A stretch of DNA of 64,000 nt from Erodium maritimum (taxonomy: Eukaryota > Streptophyta > Magnoliopsida > Geraniales > Geraniaceae): the NCBI GenBank assembly GCA_963921825.1, contig OY997594.1, positions 191,001 through 255,000 on the forward strand, written 5' to 3'. Each line of letters starts with the position of its first letter. Position 1 is the first letter of the stretch. Of the stretch, positions 8,451 through 64,000 are shown piece after piece. The notes beneath the pieces are model-generated. The model was not told where the DNA came from. It did not search any database and saw only the letters and a list, made by a program, of their open reading frames with translations. Both the position numbers and the translations under genes were made by a program.

Positions 8451-8574
8451 ACGACTCCGCAAGAACTAGTCAAACAGTGAAAGTAGAGACGATGCAATAA
8501 TTACTACATCCATACAGCTTATTCGATTATTCTACAAGGACAAGTCAATGCAAGTTGTGTAGTTTCTACAAGTC

Positions 8575-21800: not shown

Positions 21801-21810
21801 CTATATAAAT
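21801..21810 (+). promoter_or_regulatory. Probable TATA box of KS-like copy 3
   Basis: 'ctatataaat', 64 bases before the ATG at 21874 and at the position equivalent to the TATA stretch of copy 1. Confidence 0.5.
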
Positions 21811-21873
21811 ATTATGCCTTTAGGCATTTTCTTCACAAACATATAAGTTATTTGCTTGCACCTGAATGCAACA

Positions 21874-27800: not shown

Positions 27801-28495
27801 TCTTTGTGGGAGCCAAGATTTCCCAAGAAACCTTAGAAAGTCCTGAATTCCATCGTCTTGGTCATCTTATGAGCATCACTGGACGTCTTCTCAATGACGT
27901 TCAGACCTATAAGGTACACACTCTTCTCATTTTCACAAAACTATATGATCTGTGCCCATTTCATAAGGGGTACTAAATGTGTGTTACCAAAACGTACGGA
28001 CTCTTATTGAACATTATAAAACTTTGAGGTACTAAAGGTGTGTTACCAATTCAAAAGGTGTACAATAATTTAAATTTTCAAGGGTAAAATTGTCATTTTA
28101 AAAGAAGTTTATACAAAGTGTAACAAAAACACATGTTCGGGTTTCTTTTTTGCAATTATCCCTATATTGTACTTGTGCAGAGAGAAGCCGAGGAAGGGAA
28201 ACAAGGGAATGCTGTGACGTTGCGAGTAATCCATAGCAACGGTGCAGTCAAAGAAGAGGAAGCCATAGGAGAGATAAACCGTGTGATTACTGAAAAGAGG
28301 AGAGAGTTGCTGAGGTTGGTGTTGCAGAAGAGAGGGAGCTTGGTTCCTAGAGCCTGCAAGGATGTGTTTTGGTATATGAACAAGGTGATGCAGCTTTTTT
28401 ACATGGAGGCTGATGGACTCTACAAAACTGATCTGATGAAGGAACTGAGTGCAATCGTTAATGAACCCATTGTTCTCCATCAACACCTTCAATGA
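21874..28495 (+). CDS. ent-kaurene-synthase-like diterpene synthase, copy 3 (14 exons, 797 aa)
   Basis: Exons: 21874-21949, 22162-22208, 22283-22571, 22651-22831, 22942-23159, 23259-23379, 25918-26015, 26225-26454, 26533-26645, 26726-26824, 26902-27120, 27254-27395, 27668-27913, 28181-28495. All junctions are GT..AG with matching phases; no stop occurs in 797 codons. Intron 6 is swollen to 2.5 kb by inserted elements. Residues 1-41 resemble a plastid transit peptide. SYDTAW and [12 protein letters not shown] are present. The first metal motif is D542-EWF-D546, the second N687-DVQT-x3-E695. The kaurene/pimaradiene switch position is Met650 (Phe in copy 1, Ile in true kaurene synthases). Exon 11 has one more codon than copy 1 (FDRAVGY against FDKVGH). 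It is closer to pseudogene copy 2 than to copy 1. It presumably acts on a copalyl diphosphate isomer in plastids. Confidence 0.9.
23669..25772. mobile_element. 2.1-kb insertion in intron 6 of copy 3
   Basis: Copies 1 and 3 align up to 'attatgaagttaa' and again from 'gtgtgtattgatatacatg'; everything between is extra. It contains a large foldback element (24271-25620) and flanking AT-rich DNA that I cannot assign. Splice sites of exons 6 and 7 are unaffected. Confidence 0.75.
24271..25620. mobile_element. Large foldback element with GC-rich core
   Basis: Left arm (24281-24385) and right arm (25505-25610) are about 105-base inverted copies at roughly 90% identity; both hold 'agctattttcaaaaagtta' or its complement. 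Between them is 1.1 kb, mostly very AT-rich, but 24530-24790 is GC-rich and coding-like in texture, with 'ggaggagctcgac' repeats. This resembles a gene piece captured by a non-autonomous DNA element. No transposase is seen. Confidence 0.7.
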
Positions 28496-29430
28496 TCCAG
28501 CTGCTCCTCTTTGGCCTCCTTGATATTCGGTCGGGTTCTTTTGTTGGCCACCGTTGCTCAGGCCTGCATTTTGGCTGTGAATAACTTGCAAAATGCTGAA
28601 TAACTTGTATTACTGAATAACTTGCAAATTGCTTGATCATGGAGGTAGAATTAGATGTCTTAAATGTGGTGTGTGGCAAAGGGGTAATAGGTCATGGAGG
28701 TAGAATTAGATGTCTTAAATGTGGTTTTGGTCGTCCTTGATTGGTCGTTAAATGCTTTAGAATGTCCTACTATTGAAGATAATCGGACCTCTTTAGAGTT
28801 TTTAGGAGATACGATAGTGTTGGGTCTTGATGGAAGGTATGAACACATACTCGCAGAAGAAACAAATAACACTCGAGACAAGCATGATGTAAAATAGGAC
28901 AAGTATGATGCTAAGTATGACTAAACAAGGTGGTGTTAGGTGGTGAATTACCAACACTTTAATCTTTGTCTTGCTTACTTAGTACTAATTGATCAAGACT
29001 TGATTAATTAGTTACATGGGTCCTGGTTGCATGTGCCTCTTGGAACATGCCTCAAGGTCATTCCCAACGAGGTCCCGTGACACGCTCATCGCCTTCAAGC
29101 CTTCCATACCGGAAATGCCCAACATTATCCGACGTGATCAATACAAGACTCCAACACTTGTCTCGATCCGTAGTCCTATTCACTTACGGGCACATGACTC
29201 AAAACCCAGTTTTGGTCATGTCCCGACACAACTCTCTTTTGGTCATTCTCCATAAATGTGTAAAGGAGTTTCATCCTTTAGTGTGACCCTTATGTTTATG
29301 CACATCAATAGATCAACGTAAAGTGGTCTTTTTTGTTAGAGAGTCTGTAGCTAGACTCTCTTCGTTGTATTCCTCTTCCTTCTTGAGAGAGGTCTAATTT
29401 AAATTTGCTTTGCTGATAAAAAAAAAATTG
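28496..29430. other. Extra DNA between copy 3 and its old downstream flank
   Basis: No gene is supported. It holds a 55-base tandem duplication (28637-28725), a diverged RNase H-like scrap, and unassigned sequence. It separates copy 3 from a second, orphan KS exon 14 tail at 29431. Confidence 0.55.
28637..28725. repeat. Imperfect 55-bp tandem duplication
   Basis: 'tcatggaggtagaattag' and the following bases to 'ttaaatgtgg' occur at 28637 and again at 28692, with about 20 unrelated bases between. Confidence 0.7.
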
Positions 29431-29490
29431 TTCATGAACCCATCGTTCTCCATCGACACCTTTAAGGATCTGAGTGCTGGTCTTCTCTCT
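29431..29490 (+). pseudogene. Orphan 3' end of a KS-like exon 14
   Basis: The stretch beginning 'gttcatgaacccatcgttc' encodes the last ten residues of KS exon 14 (HEPIVLH) plus about 25 bases behind the stop. It is nearer to copy 1 (HEPIVLH) than to adjacent copy 3 (NEPIVLH), lies 940 bases behind copy 3 and is followed by the same flank as copy 1. It is the footprint of another KS copy or of an unequal exchange. Confidence 0.75.
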
Positions 29491-29868
29491 TTGGCCCCTC
29501 TATGGTCAAAGTCAGAATCATATCTCCTCTTTACATTTCTTATGTTACTAAATAATCTGCAAATTGCTTGATGTGCAAGCTATAAATGTTATCATCTTAT
29601 AGAAAGCGGCAATGATGCAATAATACCACATTTATACAACTTATTTGATGACTCCGCAATAACAAGTCAAGCAATGAAAGTAGCGATGATGAAATAATAA
29701 TTCTACATTTATACAGCTTATTCGATTATTCTACAAGGGCAAGTCAAGCAAATAAGTTATGCAAGTTGTGTGGTTTCTACAAGTTGTCATCACTTTAATT
29801 TGTACAATATATCTCAGTCGTCGTCTCCATTATGCAGTGTTACAGAGGGCAGGGGCGAAGCTGCCATG

Positions 29869-30441
29869 CTATGCCTCAGGTTGCTCGGATTTCGATGATG
29901 CCCACTTTCCATATTCAATGCACAGACTCTTTGCCACCACAGAATCACTGATCAAGCCTACTTTCGCCTCACTGAAATTAAGCGCGCCTCTCAGCTTCCG
30001 CTCACTAGAGAAAAAATTGGACTTCGTTACATTTCAAGTCCAGGAGTTTGTACATGTAAGAAGGAGAAGAGGCATACCTATTCAAGCGGTTGTTGATGAC
30101 AGTCAGGTCTTTTGATGGGCTCTGATAAGGACGAGTACTTTCTCCAAGACAAGCGTAATAGCTTTTAGCGCTATGCGAGACTAGCACATCCTTCTGCAGA
30201 AGCAATTTCAAGAATCAAGCACATAAATTGTTTGTATGACTATTAGAAGTTGTTCCATCAAGGGAGAGAGACCAGTTTTAAGTGAATATGGCTGAACTTT
30301 TGGAGCTAAATATGGAAGTTCCTCATCAACCGGTTTTCGGTTTGGAAATTTCTAGACTTAGATCACCTTCATGATGCTGTTAGGATTCGAACATGTGACC
30401 TCTTGGTCTATATAGTTGAAGACTCTTGTGACCCACTAAAT

Positions 30442-42291: not shown

Positions 42292-43510
42292 TTAGTTGTA
42301 CATGAAATGGCACTCACTGTAACCTGCCCAAAAAATAATGATAATAAATATTACTGTCTCAATCTCTAAATTAGACTCTTCGGACAAGAACACAACTAAT
42401 GATTATGTAAGAAACTCACTCGGGTCAATAGCCACAAGCATGGCTGTTCCTCCGAACTCGCACGTGCCACCTGTCGCCTTGCTCCTCTGCCAATAATCGT
42501 TAAAAGCATACGAAGCATGTGCGTATAGTGTATCGGGTTGAAAGCACGACCCGGAAGTCTGGATCGGACCGCAATCCGCTCCTGACCCGCAAGCATAGTT
42601 CAAGGCTTCTTGGATTATCGGATCGGGTACCGATGGCTTAGCCACGCACCAGAGGCCCGTGCCCTGATTCCCGTTGGCCGGCGATGGAACCGTCGGTGCC
42701 GGTGGATCAAAAACCGGTGCGCTCATTATGGGCCCATTTGGTCCAGGAATTAGTGGAGTGGGCCCAAAGTCCAAACCACTAGGGGGGCCTGAGAAGGTGT
42801 ATGAGGGTATCGGAATGTTGCCTGTTGGGCTCGGGAAAGTGTCCGGTGGGAATGGTATGTTGCCGGGTGGGCTCGGGAAAGTTTCCGGTGGGATTGGTAT
42901 GTTTCCAAGCGGACTCGGGGAAGTGTCCGGTGGGATTGGTATGATGCCAAGTGGGCTTCGAAAAGAGTCTGTTTGGCTCGAAATGTTGCCTTCCGGGCTC
43001 GGGAAAGTGTCCGATGGGATCGGTATGTTGCCAAGTGGGCTTGGGAAAGAATTTGTTGGGTTCGAAATGTTGCCTTCCGGGCTAGGGAAAGTGTCCGGTG
43101 GCATTGGTATATTGCCAAGTGGGCTTGAGAAAGCGTCAATTGGGCTCGGAATGTTGCCTTCCAGGCTCGAGAAAGTGTCCCGAGGGATTGGTATGTTGCC
43201 AAGTGGGGTCGGAATGTTGACTTCCGGGCTCGGGACAAGTGGGCTCGGAGAAGTGATGGTTGGGCTTGGAGAAGCACCCGGTGGGCTCGGATAGGTTTCT
43301 GCTGGTGGGCTTGGAGTTGGGATTGTTGGGTCAGAACAACCAGGAGGCAATGAATCAAAAAAGGTGGCAAAGGAAATGGAGAGCTCACAAATGGTGGTGG
43401 GTTCAGATTTTGAAGATGATCCAAGTTTTGCTTCACAACTTTCACGGAATTGCGTGACCTTGAGCGTGCCCCAACATGTTGTGATAACAACAGCACTGAC
43501 TTCCTAGCCT
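42292..43510 (-). pseudogene. Proline-repeat X8 (CBM43) domain protein, 5' incomplete, apparent frameshift
   Basis: Two exons are clear: 42420-43510 and 42292-42323 (last residues YSECHFMYN). The X8 domain starts at GLWCVAKPS and has the six-cysteine pattern, ALNYACG, GADCGPI, FGGTAML and DPSYSEC; it binds callose (beta-1,3-glucan) at plasmodesmata or walls. Before it lies a proline-rich region of about 180 residues built from SPLGNIPIPPDTFP-type units. Upstream of a run of six T (about 43357-43362) the natural continuation LNPPPFVSSPFPLPPF is in another frame, so one T too few or two too many breaks the reading frame. The acceptor at 43511 implies an earlier signal-peptide exon, which I could not find up to 44500. 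It may be a young pseudogene or a base-calling error. A GPI tail is not seen. Confidence 0.75.
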
Positions 43511-44556: not shown

Positions 44557-46625
44557 AGTGGCGGAACTAGGAATTTATTTCAGGGGTAACCATTGATAAT
44601 TAATGAATATATAAAATAAAATAAACATTACCAAAATAGATTACTATTATAATACAAAAAACACTAACATTTTGAATTACAATTCAAATGTAATTTTAAA
44701 CTCAAACACTTTTCTCGAAAGGTACTTTCATTCTCCTATTACCTATACCTTGAAAACGTTTAATGATATCTAAGTCATCGATTGTACTAAACACTTCTTT
44801 CTCTACAAAAGTCACTAAACAATCATTAAGCCATGGGTTGGACATTTTGTTTCTCAACTCATTCTTCACAAATTTCATACCAGAAAACACCTGTTCAACA
44901 CTTGCAGTAGACACCGGTAATGTCAAAGCTAGCTTCACAAGCTTGTACACAAATCTAAAGGTCTTGTGCTTCTTTGTCCGAACAAGAGTCTTTGAAAGAT
45001 CAGAAATCCCATTCAAATTGGAAAAGTTATTGTCCATCCTGACACTCTCAATATAATTCTGAAACTGATTAGATAACTCATCATCAGTGACGTCTTTGAA
45101 GTCTTTCGGATATAATCTCGCTAACCTTACAAGTGATTGAGTGTCAAAAGCTTCAAATGAAGAGCAAGGACTCAAGGATGCAACACAACGCAGTAACTCA
45201 GTATTATCAGGAGTAAAGCGATCATTCAATTCCTTTAATACCAAATCTATGACATGAAAAAAACAGTCATTCTTGAAATAATGCAAATTTGTCACAATTG
45301 GACCAATGCGTTTGGATTTATTACCTTTCACATACCTTGCATCCATGTCGGGCACATCAATCTCAAGATTACCACAAGATGATGTAACTTTTTTTATAAA
45401 ACTCTTCCCATCCATCATCTCTCATTTCTTGAAACCTTTTTTTGTTGTCGAACAAGCTACATAGCATTCACAATATCTTGATCACCCATTTGTAATGCTT
45501 GAGACAAATCATTTGTCACTCATAATACATGAACCATTAAGTGCAACATAAAAACAAAACCAAAAGTTTCCATGACAAGTAACAAACTTTCTGGTTCTCC
45601 ACCTCCATATTTATCATCTTCCAAATCTTCAAGCACTTGAGTAATAAGAGTAAACAAATCAATCAACCTTAAAAGAGTCCGATAGTGAGATCCCCAACGT
45701 GTATCACCCGCTCTTGCGATAGACAATTCTTGATTCAACCCTCTACCGGTTTCCACCAAATCTTGTTCAATTAGATTTCCAAAATGAGCAACTTGTTTCT
45801 GTTGAAGCAAAGATTGTCGCTTGTTAGATGAACGTAAGAAATTGACAATCCGAGATACTTCACAAAAAAACCAATTAACACTTTTATGATTTCTCGCCAT
45901 TGAAACAAGGGTCAATTGAAGTTGGTGAGCAAAACAGTGCACATGATAGGCTTGAGGATTTTCCTTTAGAATCAAAGTTTTCAAACCTCCAAATTGACCT
46001 CGCATATTACTTGCTCCATCATATCCTTGACCTCGAATTTTGGGTATGCACAACCCAAATCCAAACAACAAAGTTTCAAGAGATCCTTTAAGTGAAATTG
46101 CACTTGTATCTCTTACATAAACAACGCCAATAAATCTTTCTACAACAAAACCTCTATCATCAACAAAACCTCTATCATCAACAAAACGCACAACAATAGC
46201 CATTTGTTCTTTTCCCGAACAATCACTCGATTCATCAACAAGTACACAAAAAACGTCATCATCAATTTCCTTGGCAATTTTTTTAACAGTTTCGACAACA
46301 CATGCATTCACAAGCTCTTTTTGAATAAGAGGAGAGGTCATTTTACAATTTCCTCCCCCATTTCTAATGGCCTCCCCCACTTTGTCACTATTTTCCCCCA
46401 AAAGTTCTATGAGCTCCAGAAAATGACCCTTATAAACAGAAATTTTTCCTTCATCGTGTGTCCTAAAAGTCATCCCACCTTTAACAAGATATTTGACTGC
46501 TTCAAGTGATGTTTTCAAACGAACAAGATAATCTTCTTCCGCTTTTGCACAATGTTTTGTATATAAAGATATGATACCTTGTTTTTTCTTCAAAAGATCA
46601 TCACAACTTTGTACACATCATATAT
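44557..46625 (-). pseudogene. Decayed hAT transposase (TTF/DUF4371 type)
   Basis: Two long frames, 45520-46625 and 44702-45418, together show the plant hAT family with TTF-type N-terminus. Seen: FCVLVDESSD (first catalytic acid), GQGYDGASNMRG, HCFAHQLQL, RWGSHY and the C-terminal hAT dimerisation segment LPVSTASVEQVFSGMK..LRNKM. Between the frames there are two in-frame stops and a frame change, and a 15-base direct duplication repeats FVDDRG. The N-terminal zinc finger is lost at about 46625, where other DNA begins. The 3' end 'tagtggcggaactagg' at 44556 resembles the family's terminal repeat; the other terminus is not found. It is not functional. Confidence 0.85.
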
Positions 46626-48008
46626 TCGTTTCTAGACTTTACCGGTTATTAACGTCCTATATGCATACCAGTAACTTTCCGCAATTAAACCGGTATTCGC
46701 TACATTTCCCTACCTCGATCGCTATCCAAACGCTTAGTCAATTCGAGACGCCTAGTAGCCTCCTCCGTCGAGCTCGGGTCTAACGTCTAAGATCATAAAG
46801 CAATCCGAGAATTAATGTTAATTCAAAAGCGGTTTAACGATAAAGCAAACAAATTATTTTCGAAAAATCAAAACATGGACCGAATGAAATTTAGGCCGGA
46901 ACAAGGCCCATTTTGGGCGGCCCATATGCCTGGTACCCGGCCTGGCCCGTGCGGCACACCGGCCCAGCTCGTGCGGCACACCGGCCTGACACCCGGCCCG
47001 TGCGACACACCGACCCGATACCTGGCACGGTCCGTGCGGCACCCCGACTCGGTACCTGGCATGGTCCGTGCGGTACTTCGGTCCGACTTCGGGCCCGGTC
47101 CGTGTGGCGTTCCGTGCCGTTCTGGGCAGACACCTTCTTCTTCCTCCCTCAACTCTGTTTACACGAATTTTCCACCTCCAAACTCCATTGCTGACCTCTC
47201 AAACCTCTAAAACAGATCCAAAACCTCCATGAATCAATACCCAACTTTGGGTTTCACCAAAAACAACAAAATCCAAGTGATTTCTCATCAACACTTCCAT
47301 TTCTCTTCACAATACAATCATCTAAACCATAATAACCTTACACCCAACCTACTTCAAGCTTTTCTTTACCATACTCAAAATTCAACATCATGGAAATGAG
47401 AATCAAGAGAGTGCTTACGTAAGGAAATGGAGAAAGGAAGAAAAAGATGATATTTTTTGGAAGATTTGAGGTAAGACTAAGCTAAAGTCTCCATTTTTTC
47501 TCTTTCTTCTTCTTCAAGCTTCTATGGCTTATCTATCTCTTCTTGCTCTCTAAATTTCGGCCAACACTATAGAAATGGACTGAAATGCTTTCATTTGATG
47601 CTTTAACCCTAAGTGATAAATATCTAATTTGCCATTTAGTTTCCTTTACTCCAAATTGGCCCAATAAGGGTAAATGGGTCTTTCTAGACCCATTTCTTCT
47701 CCTCCAAGCCACCATGGACAAGTGTCCTTGTGGGGTCCACTTCCATCCTTAATAAAATCCAGCACATTAAATTAATTCGTTTTAGCCTATAATTAGACCT
47801 CATTTGACTCACAGTTGACTTTTTCTCAAAAGTAGTCATTAGAAAAGAAGCGACCCAACTAAGCTAACCGTAACGAAGACTAAGCTTTTTGGGTCCCGGA
47901 AAGGTCCCGAATGACTCCCGGAGTCATCGGTTTACTTTTCCAGCGGAAAGTCAACTTTCGCCAGATTTCACCGATTCGACTGGGATCGACCGGGGGAGGT
48001 TCTTACAC
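46610..48008 (-). mobile_element. LTR fragment, probably Ty3-type (fossil)
   Basis: On the - strand the segment starts TGTAAGAACCTCCCCCGG at 48008 and runs towards the broken hAT gene, where it ends near 46610-46640. It has promoter-like and GC-rich parts with short tandem repeats (46915-47120, 'cgtgcggcacaccgg'). This looks like a long LTR of a plant Ty3-type element. No target duplication, primer site or coding region is seen next to it, so it is broken or solo, and its left end is uncertain. Confidence 0.5.
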
Positions 48009-48434
48009 TCATTAGTTAACAAAAGACCAGATTTTGAAAACGCTTAAATAACAAAAGCGAGCACCCAACTCGCTTAGCTCTAATCGAGCACCGTATGCAG
48101 ATCACCGTGTTGACCCGCTTCAACACTTCGTGAATTATGAGATGGGTGTTTCTTGGTCGAGAGGAAGAAGAAGTCCCGACCTCTCCATCTGTTACGTCTC
48201 TATCGAAGGAGTAGACCTAACGAGTCGAAGGCGCTCATGGAAAACCAGAGCTTGTTGATGGCTCTGGTTCCTCTACTATGCAGAGCACCCATCCTATACA
48301 ATGCAATTGGGTACAGAGACGCCGCCTTTAACCCACATATACTCTCCTCGTCACGCCTCTCTCCTTCATTTTCTCTGAGCTCGCATCGTGGATAGATCAT
48401 GAAGCCCGCAATTAGGGCGAGTATTTGCAATGTC
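48009..48434. other. Unique DNA to the left of the tandem array
   Basis: No gene assigned. Open frames exist on both strands (48153-48395 + and 48200-48436 -) without recognisable domains. The array begins at 48435. Confidence 0.5.
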
Positions 48435-48780
48435 ACACTACGACCACTAAAGTTGTGGTTTCGTCAGGTCTAAAATAAAATTCAAAGAAGCAAATGATCG
48501 GCATCATGGAAGAGAAGGAAGTAGAAGGGCACGAAGATATTATTAGTATTTAAAAAGTAAGTCATGTGTTAATCACATGACGATTGTCCGAGAATGTAGT
48601 AAAATAATATAAGTGAAACTTTAGTGTAAAAAGACAAAAATCATAATAGTTTATTACAATGGACTAAAACCGTAGCGGTAATTATTCGTACTTGCAATAA
48701 AGTCACAACAGCTTATACAACTAAACCCTGATTTGAAGAAGATTAAAAGAAAATCATAGCGGGATCAAAAGAAACAGTGG

Positions 48781-48790
48781 CTATAAATAG
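48781..48790 (+). promoter_or_regulatory. TATA box in array unit 1 (repeated in every unit)
   Basis: 'ctataaatag' is a near-perfect plant TATA box, 78 bases before the first ATG (48859). Copies lie at +2498, +4997, +7496, +9994 and +12494. Nothing else of the promoter is recognised. Confidence 0.6.
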
Positions 48791-48858
48791 AGAATCAACA
48801 CTCTCAGAGTACTTTGACTTCATTTGTTTGTGAGTGTGTTGGTCTCGTAGAGAAATAC

Positions 48859-49417
48859 ATGACTAAGGTACATCCCAACCCGTAGCGTTGTATTCCGTTG
48901 GTGTAGACGTAACGATGTTCTTGATATAGCAGGCTCAGAGTCAGAAGCACGAGGAGGCTGGCCGCATTCTCGGCCGAGGTGGGCTGAGGATGAAGAGGAG
49001 GACGGAGCGGAGGCGACCTCGTTGGAGTGTGGTGCCAGCGCCGCCACCACGGGAACGCTCCATCTTCCCTGACCCGGTTCGCCGTTTGGGTGTCGCAGGG
49101 AGCGCGAACGAGAACGCCACCGAAGCCGTCAAAACGGCAACGTGCCTGGCCTGTTATCGCATGATCGACCGATTGGCTAAGTCCGCTCTGACAGTACTAA
49201 TTAACAACGCTGTGATTCAGTTCTTTAACAAGTAGTGCTCTGTTTTTACGTTTGTTTATACGTTCAGATCGAGTGCATAGATGAGGAACACCGTGAACAA
49301 GACTATGACGAGGACTACAACTTGATAGACACGCAGAGCACCGTCGAATTGGCCGTGGACAACATGACAGGAGTCGATCTGAGTAGCCTCATGTATGTTT
49401 ACTCTGCCGCTGAATGA
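48859..49417 (+). CDS. Unrecognised short gene in array unit 1
   Basis: I do not recognise this protein. A spliced reading that keeps phase is 48859-48867, 48933-49193 and 49268-49417 (introns of 65 and 74 bases, GT..AG), giving 139 residues that start at the first ATG behind the TATA box. The N-terminal half is Arg-rich (RMKRRTERRRPRW), then comes PAPPPRER, an Ala/Thr-rich stretch with CLACYRM, and an acidic end (DEEHREQDYDEDYNLID ... SLMYVYSAAE). The alternative is an unspliced 81-residue frame at 48990-49235. GC content rises sharply over the middle exon, as in coding DNA. Splicing is inferred. 'gaataaatg' behind the stop may serve as a poly(A) signal. It may also be a gene fragment. Confidence 0.4.
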
Positions 49418-50932
49418 TAAGAATGGTTAGTTTAACTTTGCTAATAAATGAGTCAATCTTTGTGTATTTTTTCTCATTTTTTTTTATTAGTTATATTTCT
49501 GTAGGTGGAGGCTTGTCATGTAGGGTCATTTTCTTCTTCTGTTGAATAAATGTATATTATATCTTTTGAGAACGAATAAACATGTAATTATATTGAGCAA
49601 ATAAATAAAAAAATTTCCTTTTTCTCTCCTTCGTCAGAGAAAGATTCCATTTCTTTACTCTCATATAAATCTTGCTATCAGGGTCGGCCCACTGATTACA
49701 GGGGCTTAAAGCGAGAATTGATCGATATCTTTTTTTTATGAAATAATATAATTAAAAAAAAAAAAGCAAACGTGTTTGTGTGGAAAGATTATACTAGATG
49801 ATACTGAACGAATGAGCTTGTACATCTACTTATAACACTCAAAATCTAAAATGAATGGTGAAGATTAATTTCTAACAAGACAACCTTCATGGATAAGATG
49901 TACCATCTAGAATTCTATACAAAAATCTAAAATTTTAAGGATTCACATTTATTTATAGACACGATACATTCATGTCAAGATAAAATATGATAGGTTCAAG
50001 ATAATTCTAGACAGTTACACCAAATTCTACTAGCTTATATGTGACGTCGTATATGAATAGCTATTATCATCAACTTCTAGAAATTTCCATACTTCAAATT
50101 TTTTCTAGACAATTTTAGTGTATATTAGTAACCCCAATTTTTAATACTGTCAAACACAATGAGACTCATGCTTTTAATCCTTGAATTCCATGGATTATTC
50201 TTCGATAAATGATTTTTTTACTACACATATTCGTACAAAAATCATACATTCTAGCACCGATTGTTAATATATACACATGTTTTGTTTCCTTTTCAATAAA
50301 AAAATATTGATATTATTTAATATGTTTAGATGCATAGTTTCATTATTTGAATGACTTAGAAATTGGTTTATAAAATATTAAGGGAAGTATGAGAAATCAA
50401 ATCAAACATTCAGCGGATTTCTCATATGTTTGTTTTGCATTCTTTTTGTTATGAACAGATATTTATATCCAATATTAGATTGTTTTTCCTATTTTGATAG
50501 CTTACTTTTCTAGGTTATTTTGGTTTTATCATTTCCGTAATGAAGTTGATAAATTGATTATCATTCCTCGAACAAGTACTATAGTGTATTATATATAAAT
50601 ATTCATGCTTCTTTTTTGATGTGTTATATTGTTTTTTATCCCTATTTTTAATTCACTGATCATTGATAAATGGAATATGCATGTTTTATTTCGTTAACGA
50701 TAGTTTTTCACTGCGAAATTAACATCCATAAAGTTGTTAGAATGTTCAACCATCATAAAAAATTATCTTCTATTTGGATGAAAAATGCTTTTCTGATTTT
50801 TTTTAATATATATCAAAATTAGACTTAACTAGTATTAAGTTTTCATTTCAAGATTAGAAGTGTAATATTTTTTGCTTGATTAAGTTTGATCAAATAATAA
50901 CAGATCTTTTAAGTTTGAGCTCAATTGGTGAT

Positions 50933-53431
50933 ACACTACGACCACTAAAGTTGTGGTTTCGTCAGGTCTAAAATAAAATTCAAAGAAGCAAATGATCGGC
51001 ATCATGGAAGAGAAGGAAGTAGAAGGGCACGAAGATATTATTAGTATTTAAAAAGTAAGTCATGTGTTAATCACATGACGATTGTCCGAGAATGTAGTAA
51101 AATAATATAAGTGAAACTTTAGTGTAAAAAGACAAAAATCATAATAGTTTATTACAATGGACTAAAACCGTAGCGGTAATTATTCGTACTTGCAATAAAG
51201 TCACAACAGCTTATACAACTAAACCCTGATTTGAAGAAGATTAAAAGAAAATCATAGCGGGATCAAAAGAAACAGTGGCTATAAATAGAGAATCAACACT
51301 CTCAGAGTACTTTGACTTCATTTGTTTGTGAGTGTGTTGGTCTCGTAGAGAAATACATGACTAAGGTACATCCCAACCCGTAGCGTTGTATTCCGTTGGT
51401 GTAGACGTAACGATGTTCTTGATATAGCAGGCTCAGAGTCAGAAGCACGAGGAGGCTGGCCGCATTCTCGGCCGAGGTGGGCTGAGGATGAAGAGGAGGA
51501 CGGAGCGGAGGCGACCTCGTTGGAGTGTGGTGCCAGCGCCGCCACCACGGGAACGCTCCATCTTCCCTGACCCGGTTCGCCGTTTGGGTGTCGCAGGGAG
51601 CGCGAACGAGAACGCCACCGAAGCCGTCAAAACGGCAACGTGCCTGGCCTGTTATCGCATGATCGACCGATTGGCTAAGTCCGCTCTGACAGTACTAATT
51701 AACAACGCTGTGATTCAGTTCTTTAACAAGTAGTGCTCTGTTTTTACGTTTGTTTATACGTTCAGATCGAGTGCATAGATGAGGAACACCGTGAACAAGA
51801 CTATGACGAGGACTACAACTTGATAGACACGCAGAGCACCGTCGAATTGGCCGTGGACAACATGACAGGAGTCGATCTGAGTAGCCTCATGTATGTTTAC
51901 TCTGCCGCTGAATGATAAGAATGGTTAGTTTAACTTTGCTAATAAATGAGTCAATCTTTGTGTATTTTTTCTCATTTTTTTTTATTAGTTATATTTCTGT
52001 AGGTGGAGGCTTGTCATGTAGGGTCATTTTCTTCTTCTGTTGAATAAATGTATATTATATCTTTTGAGAACGAATAAACATGTAATTATATTGAGCAAAT
52101 AAATAAAAAAATTTCCTTTTTCTCTCCTTCGTCAGAGAAAGATTCCATTTCTTTACTCTCATATAAATCTTGCTATCAGGGTCGGCCCACTGATTACAGG
52201 GGCTTAAAGCGAGAATTGATCGATATCTTTTTTTTATGAAATAATATAATTAAAAAAAAAAAAAGCAAACGTGTTTGTGTGGAAAGATTATACTAGATGA
52301 TACTGAACGAATGAGCTTGTACATCTACTTATAACACTCAAAATCTAAAATGAATGGTGAAGATTAATTTCTAACAAGACAACCTTCATGGATAAGATGT
52401 ACCATCTAGAATTCTATACAAAAATCTAAAATTTTAAGGATTCACATTTATTTATAGACACGATACATTCATGTCAAGATAAAATATGATAGGTTCAAGA
52501 TAATTCTAGACAGTTACACCAAATTCTACTAGCTTATATGTGACGTCGTATATGAATAGCTATTATCATCAACTTCTAGAAATTTCCATACTTCAAATTT
52601 TTTCTAGACAATTTTAGTGTATATTAGTAACCCCAATTTTTAATACTGTCAAACACAATGAGACTCATGCTTTTAATCCTTGAATTCCATGGATTATTCT
52701 TCGATAAATGATTTTTTTACTACACATATTCGTACAAAAATCATACATTCTAGCACCGATTGTTAATATATACACATGTTTTGTTTCCTTTTCAATAAAA
52801 AAATATTGATATTATTTAATATGTTTAGATGCATAGTTTCATTATTTGAATGACTTAGAAATTGGTTTATAAAATATTAAGGGAAGTATGAGAAATCAAA
52901 TCAAACATTCAGCGGATTTCTCATATGTTTGTTTTGCATTCTTTTTGTTATGAACAGATATTTATATCCAATATTAGATTGTTTTTCCTATTTTGATAGC
53001 TTACTTTTCTAGGTTATTTTGGTTTTATCATTTCCGTAATGAAGTTGATAAATTGATTATCATTCCTCGAACAAGTACTATAGTGTATTATATATAAATA
53101 TTCATGCTTCTTTTTTGATGTGTTATATTGTTTTTTATCCCTATTTTTAATTCACTGATCATTGATAAATGGAATATGCATGTTTTATTTCGTTAACGAT
53201 AGTTTTTCACTGCGAAATTAACATCCATAAAGTTGTTAGAATGTTCAACCATCATAAAAAATTATCTTCTATTTGGATGAAAAATGCTTTTCTGATTTTT
53301 TTTAATATATATCAAAATTAGACTTAACTAGTATTAAGTTTTCATTTCAAGATTAGAAGTGTAATATTTTTTGCTTGATTAAGTTTGATCAAATAATAAC
53401 AGATCTTTTAAGTTTGAGCTCAATTGGTGAT
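50933..53431 (+). repeat. Tandem unit 2 (2499 bp)
   Basis: Same content as unit 1; A run of 13. The left junction 'ggtgat' to 'acactacg' joins hAT interior to promoter. Confidence 0.97.
51357..51915 (+). CDS. Unrecognised short gene, array unit 2
   Basis: Apparently identical to the gene at 48859-49417 in every coding base, with the same possible introns. Confidence 0.4.
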
Positions 53432-55930
53432 ACACTACGACCACTAAAGTTGTGGTTTCGTCAGGTCTAAAATAAAATTCAAAGAAGCAAATGATCGGCA
53501 TCATGGAAGAGAAGGAAGTAGAAGGGCACGAAGATATTATTAGTATTTAAAAAGTAAGTCATGTGTTAATCACATGACGATTGTCCGAGAATGTAGTAAA
53601 ATAATATAAGTGAAACTTTAGTGTAAAAAGACAAAAATCATAATAGTTTATTACAATGGACTAAAACCGTAGCGGTAATTATTCGTACTTGCAATAAAGT
53701 CACAACAGCTTATACAACTAAACCCTGATTTGAAGAAGATTAAAAGAAAATCATAGCGGGATCAAAAGAAACAGTGGCTATAAATAGAGAATCAACACTC
53801 TCAGAGTACTTTGACTTCATTTGTTTGTGAGTGTGTTGGTCTCGTAGAGAAATACATGACTAAGGTACATCCCAACCCGTAGCGTTGTATTCCGTTGGTG
53901 TAGACGTAACGATGTTCTTGATATAGCAGGCTCAGAGTCAGAAGCACGAGGAGGCTGGCCGCATTCTCGGCCGAGGTGGGCTGAGGATGAAGAGGAGGAC
54001 GGAGCGGAGGCGACCTCGTTGGAGTGTGGTGCCAGCGCCGCCACCACGGGAACGCTCCATCTTCCCTGACCCGGTTCGCCGTTTGGGTGTCGCAGGGAGC
54101 GCGAACGAGAACGCCACCGAAGCCGTCAAAACGGCAACGTGCCTGGCCTGTTATCGCATGATCGACCGATTGGCTAAGTCCGCTCTGACAGTACTAATTA
54201 ACAACGCTGTGATTCAGTTCTTTAACAAGTAGTGCTCTGTTTTTACGTTTGTTTATACGTTCAGATCGAGTGCATAGATGAGGAACACCGTGAACAAGAC
54301 TATGACGAGGACTACAACTTGATAGACACGCAGAGCACCGTCGAATTGGCCGTGGACAACATGACAGGAGTCGATCTGAGTAGCCTCATGTATGTTTACT
54401 CTGCCGCTGAATGATAAGAATGGTTAGTTTAACTTTGCTAATAAATGAGTCAATCTTTGTGTATTTTTTCTCATTTTTTTTTATTAGTTATATTTCTGTA
54501 GGTGGAGGCTTGTCATGTAGGGTCATTTTCTTCTTCTGTTGAATAAATGTATATTATATCTTTTGAGAACGAATAAACATGTAATTATATTGAGCAAATA
54601 AATAAAAAAATTTCCTTTTTCTCTCCTTCGTCAGAGAAAGATTCCATTTCTTTACTCTCATATAAATCTTGCTATCAGGGTCGGCCCACTGATTACAGGG
54701 GCTTAAAGCGAGAATTGATCGATATCTTTTTTTTATGAAATAATATAATTAAAAAAAAAAAAAGCAAACGTGTTTGTGTGGAAAGATTATACTAGATGAT
54801 ACTGAACGAATGAGCTTGTACATCTACTTATAACACTCAAAATCTAAAATGAATGGTGAAGATTAATTTCTAACAAGACAACCTTCATGGATAAGATGTA
54901 CCATCTAGAATTCTATACAAAAATCTAAAATTTTAAGGATTCACATTTATTTATAGACACGATACATTCATGTCAAGATAAAATATGATAGGTTCAAGAT
55001 AATTCTAGACAGTTACACCAAATTCTACTAGCTTATATGTGACGTCGTATATGAATAGCTATTATCATCAACTTCTAGAAATTTCCATACTTCAAATTTT
55101 TTCTAGACAATTTTAGTGTATATTAGTAACCCCAATTTTTAATACTGTCAAACACAATGAGACTCATGCTTTTAATCCTTGAATTCCATGGATTATTCTT
55201 CGATAAATGATTTTTTTACTACACATATTCGTACAAAAATCATACATTCTAGCACCGATTGTTAATATATACACATGTTTTGTTTCCTTTTCAATAAAAA
55301 AATATTGATATTATTTAATATGTTTAGATGCATAGTTTCATTATTTGAATGACTTAGAAATTGGTTTATAAAATATTAAGGGAAGTATGAGAAATCAAAT
55401 CAAACATTCAGCGGATTTCTCATATGTTTGTTTTGCATTCTTTTTGTTATGAACAGATATTTATATCCAATATTAGATTGTTTTTCCTATTTTGATAGCT
55501 TACTTTTCTAGGTTATTTTGGTTTTATCATTTCCGTAATGAAGTTGATAAATTGATTATCATTCCTCGAACAAGTACTATAGTGTATTATATATAAATAT
55601 TCATGCTTCTTTTTTGATGTGTTATATTGTTTTTTATCCCTATTTTTAATTCACTGATCATTGATAAATGGAATATGCATGTTTTATTTCGTTAACGATA
55701 GTTTTTCACTGCGAAATTAACATCCATAAAGTTGTTAGAATGTTCAACCATCATAAAAAATTATCTTCTATTTGGATGAAAAATGCTTTTCTGATTTTTT
55801 TTAATATATATCAAAATTAGACTTAACTAGTATTAAGTTTTCATTTCAAGATTAGAAGTGTAATATTTTTTGCTTGATTAAGTTTGATCAAATAATAACA
55901 GATCTTTTAAGTTTGAGCTCAATTGGTGAT
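53432..55930 (+). repeat. Tandem unit 3 (2499 bp)
   Basis: Same content; A run of 13. No base difference from unit 2 noticed. Confidence 0.97.
53856..54414 (+). CDS. Unrecognised short gene, array unit 3
   Basis: Apparently identical to the unit 1 gene; no coding difference noticed. Confidence 0.4.
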
Positions 55931-58428
55931 ACACTACGACCACTAAAGTTGTGGTTTCGTCAGGTCTAAAATAAAATTCAAAGAAGCAAATGATCGGCAT
56001 CATGGAAGAGAAGGAAGTAGAAGGGCACGAAGATATTATTAGTATTTAAAAAGTAAGTCATGTGTTAATCACATGACGATTGTCCGAGAATGTAGTAAAA
56101 TAATATAAGTGAAACTTTAGTGTAAAAAGACAAAAATCATAATAGTTTATTACAATGGACTAAAACCGTAGCGGTAATTATTCGTACTTGCAATAAAGTC
56201 ACAACAGCTTATACAACTAAACCCTGATTTGAAGAAGATTAAAAGAAAATCATAGCGGGATCAAAAGAAACAGTGGCTATAAATAGAGAATCAACACTCT
56301 CAGAGTACTTTGACTTCATTTGTTTGTGAGTGTGTTGGTCTCGTAGAGAAATACATGACTAAGGTACATCCCAACCCGTAGCGTTGTATTCCGTTGGTGT
56401 AGACGTAACGATGTTCTTGATATAGCAGGCTCAGAGTCAGAAGCACGAGGAGGCTGGCCGCATTCTCGGCCGAGGTGGGCTGAGGATGAAGAGGAGGACG
56501 GAGCGGAGGCGACCTCGTTGGAGTGTGGTGCCAGCGCCGCCACCACGGGAACGCTCCATCTTCCCTGACCCGGTTCGCCGTTTGGGTGTCGCAGGGAGCG
56601 CGAACGAGAACGCCACCGAAGCCGTCAAAACGGCAACGTGCCTGGCCTGTTATCGCATGATCGACCGATTGGCTAAGTCCGCTCTGACAGTACTAATTAA
56701 CAACGCTGTGATTCAGTTCTTTAACAAGTAGTGCTCTGTTTTTACGTTTGTTTATACGTTCAGATCGAGTGCATAGATGAGGAACACCGTGAACAAGACT
56801 ATGACGAGGACTACAACTTGATAGACACGCAGAGCACCGTCGAATTGGCCGTGGACAACATGACAGGAGTCGATCTGAGTAGCCTCATGTATGTTTACTC
56901 TGCCGCTGAATGATAAGAATGGTTAGTTTAACTTTGCTAATAAATGAGTCAATCTTTGTGTATTTTTTCTCATTTTTTTTTATTAGTTATATTTCTGTAG
57001 GTGGAGGCTTGTCATGTAGGGTCATTTTCTTCTTCTGTTGAATAAATGTATATTATATCTTTTGAGAACGAATAAACATGTAATTATATTGAGCAAATAA
57101 ATAAAAAAATTTCCTTTTTCTCTCCTTCGTCAGAGAAAGATTCCATTTCTTTACTCTCATATAAATCTTGCTATCAGGGTCGGCCCACTGATTACAGGGG
57201 CTTAAAGCGAGAATTGATCGATATCTTTTTTTTATGAAATAATATAATTAAAAAAAAAAAAGCAAACGTGTTTGTGTGGAAAGATTATACTAGATGATAC
57301 TGAACGAATGAGCTTGTACATCTACTTATAACACTCAAAATCTAAAATGAATGGTGAAGATTAATTTCTAACAAGACAACCTTCATGGATAAGATGTACC
57401 ATCTAGAATTCTATACAAAAATCTAAAATTTTAAGGATTCACATTTATTTATAGACACGATACATTCATGTCAAGATAAAATATGATAGGTTCAAGATAA
57501 TTCTAGACAGTTACACCAAATTCTACTAGCTTATATGTGACGTCGTATATGAATAGCTATTATCATCAACTTCTAGAAATTTCCATACTTCAAATTTTTT
57601 CTAGACAATTTTAGTGTATATTAGTAACCCCAATTTTTAATACTGTCAAACACAATGAGACTCATGCTTTTAATCCTTGAATTCCATGGATTATTCTTCG
57701 ATAAATGATTTTTTTACTACACATATTCGTACAAAAATCATACATTCTAGCACCGATTGTTAATATATACACATGTTTTGTTTCCTTTTCAATAAAAAAA
57801 TATTGATATTATTTAATATGTTTAGATGCATAGTTTCATTATTTGAATGACTTAGAAATTGGTTTATAAAATATTAAGGGAAGTATGAGAAATCAAATCA
57901 AACATTCAGCGGATTTCTCATATGTTTGTTTTGCATTCTTTTTGTTATGAACAGATATTTATATCCAATATTAGATTGTTTTTCCTATTTTGATAGCTTA
58001 CTTTTCTAGGTTATTTTGGTTTTATCATTTCCGTAATGAAGTTGATAAATTGATTATCATTCCTCGAACAAGTACTATAGTGTATTATATATAAATATTC
58101 ATGCTTCTTTTTTGATGTGTTATATTGTTTTTTATCCCTATTTTTAATTCACTGATCATTGATAAATGGAATATGCATGTTTTATTTCGTTAACGATAGT
58201 TTTTCACTGCGAAATTAACATCCATAAAGTTGTTAGAATGTTCAACCATCATAAAAAATTATCTTCTATTTGGATGAAAAATGCTTTTCTGATTTTTTTT
58301 AATATATATCAAAATTAGACTTAACTAGTATTAAGTTTTCATTTCAAGATTAGAAGTGTAATATTTTTTGCTTGATTAAGTTTGATCAAATAATAACAGA
58401 TCTTTTAAGTTTGAGCTCAATTGGTGAT
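55931..58428 (+). repeat. Tandem unit 4 (2498 bp)
   Basis: Same content; A run of 12. Confidence 0.97.
56355..56913 (+). CDS. Unrecognised short gene, array unit 4
   Basis: Apparently identical to the unit 1 gene; no coding difference noticed. Confidence 0.4.
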
Positions 58429-60928
58429 ACACTACGACCACTAAAGTTGTGGTTTCGTCAGGTCTAAAATAAAATTCAAAGAAGCAAATGATCGGCATCA
58501 TGGAAGAGAAGGAAGTAGAAGGGCACGAAGATATTATTAGTATTTAAAAAGTAAGTCATGTGTTAATCACATGACGATTGTCCGAGAATGTAGTAAAATA
58601 ATATAAGTGAAACTTTAGTGTAAAAAGACAAAAATCATAATAGTTTATTACAATGGACTAAAACCGTAGCGGTAATTATTCGTACTTGCAATAAAGTCAC
58701 AACAGCTTATACAACTAAACCCTGATTTGAAGAAGATTAAAAGAAAATCATAGCGGGATCAAAAGAAACAGTGGCTATAAATAGAGAATCAACACTCTCA
58801 GAGTACTTTGACTTCATTTGTTTGTGAGTGTGTTGGTCTCGTAGAGAAATACATGACTAAGGTACATCCCAACCCGTAGCGTTGTATTCCGTTGGTGTAG
58901 ACGTAACGATGTTCTTGATATAGCAGGCTCAGAGTCAGAAGCACGAGGAGGCTGGCCGCATTCTCGGCCGAGGTGGGCTGAGGATGAAGAGGAGGACGGA
59001 GCGGAGGCGACCTCGTTGGAGTGTGGTGCCAGCGCCGCCACCACGGGAACGCTCCATCTTCCCTGACCCGGTTCGCCGTTTGGGTGTCGCAGGGAGCGCG
59101 AACGAGAACGCCACCGAAGCCGTCAAAACGGCAACGTGCCTGGCCTGTTATCGCATGATCGACCGATTGGCTAAGTCCGCTCTGACAGTACTAATTAACA
59201 ACGCTGTGATTCAGTTCTTTAACAAGTAGTGCTCTGTTTTTACGTTTGTTTATACGTTCAGATCGAGTGCATAGATGAGGAACACCGTGAACAAGACTAT
59301 GACGAGGACTACAACTTGATAGACACGCAGAGCACCGTCGAATTGGCCGTGGACAACATGACAGGAGTCGATCTGAGTAGCCTCATGTATGTTTACTCTG
59401 CCGCTGAATGATAAGAATGGTTAGTTTAACTTTGCTAATAAATGAGTCAATCTTTGTGTATTTTTTCTCATTTTTTTTTATTAGTTATATTTCTGTAGGT
59501 GGAGGCTTGTCATGTAGGGTCATTTTCTTCTTCTGTTGAATAAATGTATATTATATCTTTTGAGAACGAATAAACATGTAATTATATTGAGCAAATAAAT
59601 AAAAAAATTTCCTTTTTCTCTCCTTCGTCAGAGAAAGATTCCATTTCTTTACTCTCATATAAATCTTGCTATCAGGGTCGGCCCACTGATTACAGGGGCT
59701 TAAAGCGAGAATTGATCGATATCTTTTTTTTATGAAATAATATAATTAAAAAAAAAAAAAAGCAAACGTGTTTGTGTGGAAAGATTATACTAGATGATAC
59801 TGAACGAATGAGCTTGTACATCTACTTATAACACTCAAAATCTAAAATGAATGGTGAAGATTAATTTCTAACAAGACAACCTTCATGGATAAGATGTACC
59901 ATCTAGAATTCTATACAAAAATCTAAAATTTTAAGGATTCACATTTATTTATAGACACAATACATTCATGTCAAGATAAAATATGATAGGTTCAAGATAA
60001 TTCTAGACAGTTACACCAAATTCTACTAGCTTATATGTGACGTCGTATATGAATAGCTATTATCATCAACTTCTAGAAATTTCCATACTTCAAATTTTTT
60101 CTAGACAATTTTAGTGTATATTAGTAACCCCAATTTTTAATACTGTCAAACACAATGAGACTCATGCTTTTAATCCTTGAATTCCATGGATTATTCTTCG
60201 ATAAATGATTTTTTTACTACACATATTCGTACAAAAATCATACATTCTAGCACCGATTGTTAATATATACACATGTTTTGTTTCCTTTTCAATAAAAAAA
60301 TATTGATATTATTTAATATGTTTAGATGCATAGTTTCATTATTTGAATGACTTAGAAATTGGTTTATAAAATATTAAGGGAAGTATGAGAAATCAAATCA
60401 AACATTCAGCGGATTTCTCATATGTTTGTTTTGCATTCTTTTTGTTATGAACAGATATTTATATCCAATATTAGATTGTTTTTCCTATTTTGATAGCTTA
60501 CTTTTCTAGGTTATTTTGGTTTTATCATTTCCGTAATGAAGTTGATAAATTGATTATCATTCCTCGAACAAGTACTATAGTGTATTATATATAAATATTC
60601 ATGCTTCTTTTTTGATGTGTTATATTGTTTTTTATCCCTATTTTTAATTCACTGATCATTGATAAATGGAATATGCATGTTTTATTTCGTTAACGATAGT
60701 TTTTCACTGCGAAATTAACATCCATAAAGTTGTTAGAATGTTCAACCATCATAAAAAATTATCTTCTATTTGGATGAAAAATGCTTTTCTGATTTTTTTT
60801 AATATATATCAAAATTAGACTTAACTAGTATTAAGTTTTCATTTCAAGATTAGAAGTGTAATATTTTTTGCTTGATTAAGTTTGATCAAATAATAACAGA
60901 TCTTTTAAGTTTGAGCTCAATTGGTGAT
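58429..60928 (+). repeat. Tandem unit 5 (2500 bp)
   Basis: Same content; A run of 14. It carries the only substitution I noticed in the array: 'gacacaatac' near 59955 where the others have 'gacacgatac'. Confidence 0.97.
58853..59411 (+). CDS. Unrecognised short gene, array unit 5
   Basis: Apparently identical to the unit 1 gene; the single substitution of unit 5 lies outside it, in the hAT part. Confidence 0.4.
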
Positions 60929-63426
60929 ACACTACGACCACTAAAGTTGTGGTTTCGTCAGGTCTAAAATAAAATTCAAAGAAGCAAATGATCGGCATCA
61001 TGGAAGAGAAGGAAGTAGAAGGGCACGAAGATATTATTAGTATTTAAAAAGTAAGTCATGTGTTAATCACATGACGATTGTCCGAGAATGTAGTAAAATA
61101 ATATAAGTGAAACTTTAGTGTAAAAAGACAAAAATCATAATAGTTTATTACAATGGACTAAAACCGTAGCGGTAATTATTCGTACTTGCAATAAAGTCAC
61201 AACAGCTTATACAACTAAACCCTGATTTGAAGAAGATTAAAAGAAAATCATAGCGGGATCAAAAGAAACAGTGGCTATAAATAGAGAATCAACACTCTCA
61301 GAGTACTTTGACTTCATTTGTTTGTGAGTGTGTTGGTCTCGTAGAGAAATACATGACTAAGGTACATCCCAACCCGTAGCGTTGTATTCCGTTGGTGTAG
61401 ACGTAACGATGTTCTTGATATAGCAGGCTCAGAGTCAGAAGCACGAGGAGGCTGGCCGCATTCTCGGCCGAGGTGGGCTGAGGATGAAGAGGAGGACGGA
61501 GCGGAGGCGACCTCGTTGGAGTGTGGTGCCAGCGCCGCCACCACGGGAACGCTCCATCTTCCCTGACCCGGTTCGCCGTTTGGGTGTCGCAGGGAGCGCG
61601 AACGAGAACGCCACCGAAGCCGTCAAAACGGCAACGTGCCTGGCCTGTTATCGCATGATCGACCGATTGGCTAAGTCCGCTCTGACAGTACTAATTAACA
61701 ACGCTGTGATTCAGTTCTTTAACAAGTAGTGCTCTGTTTTTACGTTTGTTTATACGTTCAGATCGAGTGCATAGATGAGGAACACCGTGAACAAGACTAT
61801 GACGAGGACTACAACTTGATAGACACGCAGAGCACCGTCGAATTGGCCGTGGACAACATGACAGGAGTCGATCTGAGTAGCCTCATGTATGTTTACTCTG
61901 CCGCTGAATGATAAGAATGGTTAGTTTAACTTTGCTAATAAATGAGTCAATCTTTGTGTATTTTTTCTCATTTTTTTTTATTAGTTATATTTCTGTAGGT
62001 GGAGGCTTGTCATGTAGGGTCATTTTCTTCTTCTGTTGAATAAATGTATATTATATCTTTTGAGAACGAATAAACATGTAATTATATTGAGCAAATAAAT
62101 AAAAAAATTTCCTTTTTCTCTCCTTCGTCAGAGAAAGATTCCATTTCTTTACTCTCATATAAATCTTGCTATCAGGGTCGGCCCACTGATTACAGGGGCT
62201 TAAAGCGAGAATTGATCGATATCTTTTTTTTATGAAATAATATAATTAAAAAAAAAAAAGCAAACGTGTTTGTGTGGAAAGATTATACTAGATGATACTG
62301 AACGAATGAGCTTGTACATCTACTTATAACACTCAAAATCTAAAATGAATGGTGAAGATTAATTTCTAACAAGACAACCTTCATGGATAAGATGTACCAT
62401 CTAGAATTCTATACAAAAATCTAAAATTTTAAGGATTCACATTTATTTATAGACACGATACATTCATGTCAAGATAAAATATGATAGGTTCAAGATAATT
62501 CTAGACAGTTACACCAAATTCTACTAGCTTATATGTGACGTCGTATATGAATAGCTATTATCATCAACTTCTAGAAATTTCCATACTTCAAATTTTTTCT
62601 AGACAATTTTAGTGTATATTAGTAACCCCAATTTTTAATACTGTCAAACACAATGAGACTCATGCTTTTAATCCTTGAATTCCATGGATTATTCTTCGAT
62701 AAATGATTTTTTTACTACACATATTCGTACAAAAATCATACATTCTAGCACCGATTGTTAATATATACACATGTTTTGTTTCCTTTTCAATAAAAAAATA
62801 TTGATATTATTTAATATGTTTAGATGCATAGTTTCATTATTTGAATGACTTAGAAATTGGTTTATAAAATATTAAGGGAAGTATGAGAAATCAAATCAAA
62901 CATTCAGCGGATTTCTCATATGTTTGTTTTGCATTCTTTTTGTTATGAACAGATATTTATATCCAATATTAGATTGTTTTTCCTATTTTGATAGCTTACT
63001 TTTCTAGGTTATTTTGGTTTTATCATTTCCGTAATGAAGTTGATAAATTGATTATCATTCCTCGAACAAGTACTATAGTGTATTATATATAAATATTCAT
63101 GCTTCTTTTTTGATGTGTTATATTGTTTTTTATCCCTATTTTTAATTCACTGATCATTGATAAATGGAATATGCATGTTTTATTTCGTTAACGATAGTTT
63201 TTCACTGCGAAATTAACATCCATAAAGTTGTTAGAATGTTCAACCATCATAAAAAATTATCTTCTATTTGGATGAAAAATGCTTTTCTGATTTTTTTTAA
63301 TATATATCAAAATTAGACTTAACTAGTATTAAGTTTTCATTTCAAGATTAGAAGTGTAATATTTTTTGCTTGATTAAGTTTGATCAAATAATAACAGATC
63401 TTTTAAGTTTGAGCTCAATTGGTGAT
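60929..63426 (+). repeat. Tandem unit 6 (2498 bp)
   Basis: Last unit; A run of 12. At 63427 the hAT sequence continues into its unduplicated right part instead of jumping back to the promoter. Confidence 0.97.
61353..61911 (+). CDS. Unrecognised short gene, array unit 6
   Basis: Apparently identical to the unit 1 gene. It is the copy next to the complete hAT element and the 63848 gene, and so probably marks the ancestral position. Confidence 0.4.
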
Positions 63427-63490
63427 AACATCACTCAAGGAAATGCTATAAAGGGTAAAGTCTTGAGTTCAAGTCTCCCCAACAACCTAG
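63405..63490 (+). repeat. tRNA-derived SINE-like sequence inside the hAT
   Basis: 'tgagctcaattggtgataac' resembles RNA polymerase III Box A and 'gagttcaagtctc' Box B, about 45 bases apart. The array breakpoint (63426) falls just behind Box A, so units 1-5 contain Box A only. Confidence 0.5.
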
Positions 63491-63704
63491 GTTGGTATTT
63501 GTTTGTGGACAATACACCAGAGGGGTTTGTAACACCTCGCCGTCCCACACAGGGCCCCACGCGCGGCGATGTTAGGTCTGCAGCCTAATACACCTTTTGT
63601 AACACCCCGCCGTCCCACACAAGGCCCCATGCGCGACGATGTTACGTCTGCAGCCCAATACACCCCAACCCCTCTGGTGTATTGTACACAGACAAATACC
63701 AACC
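63490..63704. repeat. Inverted and direct repeats, LTR-derived in appearance
   Basis: Arms 63490-63526 and 63668-63704 are inverted copies ('gttggtatttgtttgt' against 'acagacaaataccaac'). Between and behind them 'taacacc.cgccgtcccac' recurs directly twice and once inverted. 'tgtaacaccccgccg' resembles LTR starts. Probably rearranged fossil pieces; no coding. Confidence 0.55.
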
Positions 63705-63847
63705 GTGGGACCCTGTGTGGGACGGCGGGGTGTTACAAAAACTTATTTTCTTATTTATTTTAGTTATTTTAGGAGGCTTTTTCTAATAGGTGATCTTAAG
63801 CAATTGCTTAATTAGCTTTAAAGCTTAAGCCGGCCCTGCTTGCTATT

Positions 63848-64000
63848 ATGTCCAAATCGAGGGAAGGAGATCGGCGACTTGGCGGTGATGGGAGCGACCT
63901 GGAGAGCGGTAGCGGCAGCGGCGTCGATTCCTGGTGCAGCAGCGACAGCGAGTCGGGTTTCTCCGATCTCGCCCTCGCCGACAAAGATTTGCAGTATTGG
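63848..64000 (+). CDS. Start of an unrecognised gene, cut by the window end
   Basis: An open frame starts ATG at 63848 and is still open at 64000 (51 residues). It is rich in Ser, Gly and Asp (LESGSGSGVDSWCSSDSESGFSDL) and high in GC, as in the first exon of many plant nuclear proteins. I cannot name the family. The ATG follows the hAT target duplication by one base, so the element separates the gene from its former promoter, which probably is the DNA just left of 62165. Confidence 0.6.
   Translation, partial: MSKSREGDRRLGGDGSDLESGSGSGVDSWCSSDSESGFSDLALADKDLQYW

Follow-up and report, generated by a model that had tools for sequence, protein, structure and literature searches.

The first-pass annotation of a stretch of Erodium maritimum DNA raised the question of how a block of about 15 kb, in which six pieces are nearly letter-for-letter the same, came to lie at one locus, and whether it multiplies a gene. 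The window, by which we mean the whole 64,000 nucleotides analyzed (C7:191001-255000), was compared with a single genome assembly of 763 Mb in 40 contigs. The interval 48435-63426 was filled exactly, in the assembly, by six head-to-tail units of about 2.5 kb each, and the unit starts proposed by that annotation were all exact to the base:

48435-50932, plus strand, unit 1 (2498 bases; run of 12 A, G at the variable site)
50933-53431, plus strand, unit 2 (2499 bases; 13 A, G)
53432-55930, plus strand, unit 3 (2499 bases; 13 A, G)
55931-58428, plus strand, unit 4 (2498 bases; 12 A, G)
58429-60928, plus strand, unit 5 (2500 bases; 14 A, G>A at 59959)
60929-63426, plus strand, unit 6 (2498 bases; 12 A, G)

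Alignment of the units bore out the claim, originally made by eye, that they differ at two places only, the A run and the one base in unit 5. Since the A-run differences can be sequencing noise, a single substitution (1 in 6 x 2489 bases) is left as firm variation among the six. Each unit consists of about 1.24 kb of unique DNA on the left, followed by the left approximately 1.24 kb of a non-autonomous transposon, apparently of hAT type. The unique part, searched against the whole 763-Mb assembly, had 6 matches, all six in the array and all 100% identical. The surroundings to the left were as follows:

48435-49650, no strand, unique part of unit 1 as used in the whole-genome search (1,216 bases; the unique DNA continues to the target duplication at 49671)
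48015-48434, no strand, left flank, with no other match among the matches listed (best 40 of 4821 candidates)
~47405-48014, no strand, dispersed repeat left of that flank, with at least 40 other matches (within positions 6-615 of the query 47400-48460)

A MIR529 match near the array (47417-47527) was below threshold (23.2 bits vs 75, E 0.052) and was dismissed. The left flank diverges from the unit at 48434 and the right flank after one common A at 63427; because these ends are the two breakpoints of the duplicated segment, no partial unit is left over on either side. With units arranged head to tail at one locus and nearly identical against an older background, this has the marks of a recent tandem copy-number array.

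Units so nearly indistinguishable, in an array about as long (15 kb) as many long reads, are also what might be expected if the plant's true unit count were different, perhaps two or far higher, and the six had come from the assembler. The array is, however, cleanly bounded, its variants are nonperiodic along the units (12, 13, 13, 12, 14 and 12 A, with the one substitution in unit 5), and the 40-contig assembly contains no further units of the sort that collapsed repeats may leave. The lack of extra units elsewhere and of any repeating pattern of variants mildly favors a real array, and we regard an assembly artefact as unlikely.

The part of a transposon that had been noted in each unit corresponded to the left part of a hAT-type element, whose ends were placed as follows:

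49671-49678, no strand, left 8-bp target duplication CTTGCTAT in unit 1, found again at 52169, 54668, 57167, 59665 and 62165
49679-50917, plus strand, left part of the hAT element in unit 1, with terminus CAGGGTCGGCC, cut at the unit end (right limit approximate)
62173-63838, plus strand, the sole hAT copy of the array that reaches a right end (terminus GGCCCTG), made up of a left part from 62173 to ~63411, a nested insert and a right part at ~63760-63838
63839-63846, no strand, right target duplication CTTGCTAT, present once and adjoining the right hAT end

CAGGGTCGGCC starts the element directly after CTTGCTAT, and the mirror end GGCCCTG is directly followed by CTTGCTAT; the element is thus flanked on both sides by the 8-bp target duplication and ends in short terminal inverted repeats, CAGGG...CCCTG, which we take to be a mark of hAT elements. 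Judged by its termini and its target duplication, on which the family name rests, we call the transposon in the units a non-autonomous, hAT-type element. Outside the window, the hAT half had at least 42 matches (39 of 1365 candidates scored), 41 at 85-92% identity and one a 47-bp piece; some of these matches are pieces of one copy, and the array itself is absent from the list. Its relatives measured 1345-1356 bp between the ends found by script. An exact 8-bp target duplication was found at three of eight relative loci (at L001 and L003 only with the end shifted by about 1 base off CAGG), L002 had a target duplication with 3 mismatches, and at four of the eight no pair of ends was found by the script's pattern. 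The window copy diverged by 8-15% from the long matches elsewhere, among the matches listed, which makes the transposon family far older than the array and leaves the insertion itself undated. Set against this divergence, one substitution in about 15 kb supports the original suggestion of either very recent amplification or active homogenization. On the minus strand at 44702-46617, about 1.8 kb left of the array, is a gene resembling hAT-type transposases, with DUF4371 and Dimer_Tnp_hAT.

The left hAT end and left target duplication occur six times, whereas its right end and the second copy of the target duplication each appear a single time, immediately past unit 6, where the element is interrupted by a further repeat that also holds the right breakpoint:

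63412-63740, no strand, nested dispersed repeat inside the hAT element (limits approximate, from alignment to relatives)
63426-63427, no strand, right breakpoint of the duplication, falling about 15 bp into the nested repeat, with 1 bp (A) common to the junction and the right flank

Compared with five relatives, the window hAT copy has about 310-350 extra bases from ~63412, and the insert was absent in all five relatives aligned (5 of the 8 loci). The nested repeat had at least 193 matches, itself among them (from the 40 scored of 662 candidates), and it contains inverted repeats of 35-38 nt with 94-95% complementarity and two 70-bp tandem units. Its left end carries what looks, by eye only, like a tRNA-derived, SINE-like head with its boxes; ARAGORN called no tRNA in the nested repeat. 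At many places elsewhere, matches to this repeat stand side by side on opposite strands.

Every unit ends in the first approximately 15 bp of the nested repeat, the left breakpoint (48434/48435) falls in DNA with no other match among the matches listed, the five internal junctions are all identical, and the flanks share 1 bp at the breakpoints. That a junction shares only one base with the flanks makes the first duplication look unlike recombination between repeats; together with the identity of the internal junctions, it points to what was probably one event of the end-joining type, followed by unequal exchange. The single occurrence of the right hAT end and the second CTTGCTAT, after unit 6, argues for one hAT insertion, a nested repeat within it, and a later duplication that cut through both.

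We therefore consider it probable that the array is a very young, local copy-number amplification that arose stepwise at a site of nested insertions. A single insertion of a non-autonomous hAT element would have produced the duplication CTTGCTAT; a second dispersed repeat would then have inserted near the right end of that element. The next step would have been the tandem duplication of a 2.5-kb segment that starts in the unrepeated left-hand DNA and stops about 15 bp into the nested repeat, by end joining or by template switching with 1 bp of shared sequence. Finally, unequal crossing-over or gene conversion, acting on 2.5 kb of tandem homology, may have raised the number to six units and kept the copies alike. 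The parts and breakpoints that underlie the first three of these steps are seen in the sequence; we infer the order of those three, the type of repair in the third, the whole of the fourth, and the presence of six units in the plant itself. With an assumed mutation rate of 7e-9 per site per generation, one substitution gives an array age of about 1e4 generations on a star tree, with an upper limit of about 5e4. If the copies are being homogenized, the star-tree age would be the time since the last exchange, and the array would be older than it looks.

The most likely effect of the array is to multiply a possible small orphan gene along with the piece of transposon. The first-pass annotation had given each unit a TATA box, a possible small spliced gene and a poly(A) signal, and a TATA-like site, exons consistent with splicing and an AATAAA were indeed present:

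48781-48790, plus strand, TATA-like site CTATAAATAG in unit 1
48859-49417, plus strand, candidate three-exon gene of 139 codons (exons 48859-48867, 48933-49193 and 49268-49417)

The reading frame of the candidate runs from an ATG at 48859 to a stop at 49417, with an AATAAA at 49443, and its introns of 65 and 74 nt, placed by eye, are GT-AG and all in phase 0. CTATAAATAG was absent from both strands of the 49,008 bases that make up the rest of the window, and AATAAA is common there (0.86 per kb and strand). A bacterial promoter scan, the model of which is inapplicable to a plant, found no more than it did in shuffles.

Codon use was scored with a small training set of 1,319 codons, taken from the region and a single locus on C9, of which 534 belong to a transposase-like gene; control chunks of 50 codons scored highest in their true frame in 17 of 22 cases, and those of 87 codons in 12 of 13. 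In both larger exons the named frame outscored the other five, by a narrow margin in exon 2. Exon 3 scored 0.288 (next frame, -0.010; 95% point of false frames, 0.03), and exon 2 scored -0.015 (next frame, -0.083; 95% point of false frames, -0.05). An earlier test of codon use was faulty, with a control exon out of frame and several controls scoring better out of frame; it gave a z of 2.1 for the whole CDS and 2.8 for exon 3, and in exon 2 the named frame, at a z of 0.65, fell behind others that reached as much as 1.29. Shuffling leaves each exon frame free of stops about 6% of the time, and a minus-strand frame is likewise stop-free in both larger exons.

No family could be attached to this candidate. 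Pfam searches of six ORFs and the spliced peptide, and an NCBIfam search of the spliced peptide, returned nothing above the cut-off, as did a PDB sequence search with exon 2. Weak Pfam rows (PurT_C, 0.12; DUF3678, 0.068; DUF7780, 0.029; TRAPPC10, 0.34) were below their own cut-offs and were dropped. Protein searches of the plant's own genome returned only the 6 self-matches for exon 3; for exon 2 they returned the 6 self-matches and 4 weak matches (E 0.5-4.4), and the minus-strand reading added 5 weak matches (E 0.075-6.9) to its 6 self-matches; the weak matches were dropped in both cases. The suggestion that the array amplifies a gene belonging to no recognizable family is plausible: the named frame scored highest, and neither a Pfam or NCBIfam family nor a paralogue in the genome was found for this candidate of three exons and 139 codons in the unique half of the unit.

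That the units carry a real protein gene, the extra copies of which have been kept for dosage, would fit the TATA-like site, the phase-0 introns and the poly(A) signal, as well as the codon use, in which the 95% point of false frames is clearly exceeded by exon 3 and barely by exon 2. It fits less well with a peptide for which neither Pfam, NCBIfam nor the plant's own genome yielded a relative, with frames that chance alone leaves open in some shuffles, with the competing stop-free frame on the minus strand, and with exon 2, where the lead over that minus-strand frame is small (-0.015 vs -0.083) and the named frame was not the best in the earlier, faulty test. We hold dosage selection to be unlikely, and retain a young amplification across nested insertions as the preferred account.

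The proposal that the array adjoins the start of another gene was not borne out on closer comparison. The ORF at 63848 had protein matches at loci on C9, C1 and C5 (E 1e-4, 0.003 and 0.007, respectively), which at the DNA level reduced to one short segment:

63875-63985, plus strand, probable scrap of a PDDEXK_6-type first exon beside the hAT insertion (DNA alignment to three loci)

Its 111 bases align over 118 columns, with 87% identity to the C9 locus, 82% to the C1 locus and 80% to the C5 locus. At the C9 locus, a PDDEXK_6 domain is found in a later ORF (E 4.4e-13); the first-exon ORF of C9 alone had no Pfam match. Relative to C9, the window segment shows a one-base gap, which shifts the frame, along with three-base gaps, and a search with the later PDDEXK_6 exon (a single exon, C9 query) returned nothing better than E 1.1 in the window and the next 10 kb. 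Neither an intact first exon nor following exons were thus found at 63848. Because of the one-base gap and the failure to find the later exon, a scrap is favored over a gene start, and the ORF is more likely a 111-bp remnant of a PDDEXK_6-type first exon than a diverged gene. The next recognized gene encodes a DUF2358 protein (E 2.1e-30) and starts about 4.9 kb after the window ends, which places it about 5.5 kb to the right of the array.

Tandem arrays of similar build have been described in maize. The Pl1-Rhoades haplotype carries five tandem copies of a 2,092-bp unit that consists mostly of transposable element (TE) fragments around a 390-bp unique part, and haplotypes with five, three or two copies, with reported effects on pl1, are described in PMC11166354. 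This penta-repeat is the nearest structural parallel found: both arrays have few tandem units of about 2 kb that combine TE pieces with a unique part, whereas the unit here includes what may be a coding gene, together with a truncated hAT element ending in a nested repeat, and the likeness is one of anatomy. At b1, according to PMC3798267, seven copies of an 853-bp unit that is unique in its genome lie about 100 kb upstream of their gene, and paramutation dependent on unit number has been shown. The Erodium array likewise repeats sequence unique to one genomic place. Its resemblance to the two maize arrays is anatomical, and we do not class it with them.

By analogy, the array might be regulatory, an epigenetically switchable element that would influence a neighbor, for example the DUF2358 gene. 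The pl1-like anatomy, with copy-number differences among pl1 haplotypes, and the uniqueness of the b1 unit would speak for this, but arrays of this sort may be widespread and for the most part inert, and we consider it improbable. Equally a long shot is the fuller version of this idea, in which a young, copy-number-variable and switchable element of the pl1/b1 kind has been caught at birth, with a unit that may carry a newborn orphan gene.

Growth by exchange has been proposed for the Kochia EPSPS array, for which PMC6808082 puts forward mobile-element-linked tandem growth through unequal crossing-over and a microhomology step. Both are tandem copy-number arrays tied to a mobile element; the Kochia units are tens of kilobases long, carry a known gene and are under herbicide selection, and two copies of the element are proposed as the recombining repeats, whereas the first breakpoints here share 1 bp only. 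A literature search for arrays of this kind brought up general papers besides PMC6808082, and we make no claim that this array is absent from print. The Erodium array, which we continue to read as a stepwise amplification, looks like an ordinary kind of copy-number amplification, but a very young one. If the unit number is real, it offers a clean snapshot of the birth of a multi-copy tandem array, maybe about 1e4 generations old, in which each layer of the history is legible. It would also serve as a natural test of two ideas: that small-RNA silencing is drawn to otherwise unique sequence once a few copies exist, as at b1 and pl1 in maize, and that an orphan gene benefits from increased dosage.

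Across the whole window there was no Rfam match at the gathering score and no tRNA by ARAGORN, and a reading of the array as one of RNA genes was dropped on that basis. Bases 1-2000 of contig C7 (L049) read as N. Pfam rows were obtained for 6 of the 10 window ORFs scanned, among them a retinoblastoma A domain, IMPDH, X8 and a weak terpene synthase match. The ORF for the X8-domain protein contains an 84-bp (2 x 42) repeat in about 4.7 copies (42810-43207). Three diverged direct copies of a gene-sized segment lie at 100-8690, 12554-18473 and 20685-30159, with aligned direct pieces that are 80-97% identical; one of their ORFs gave the weak match to a terpene synthase C-terminal domain (E 0.003, below the cut-off), and these copies are perhaps a broken terpene synthase cluster.
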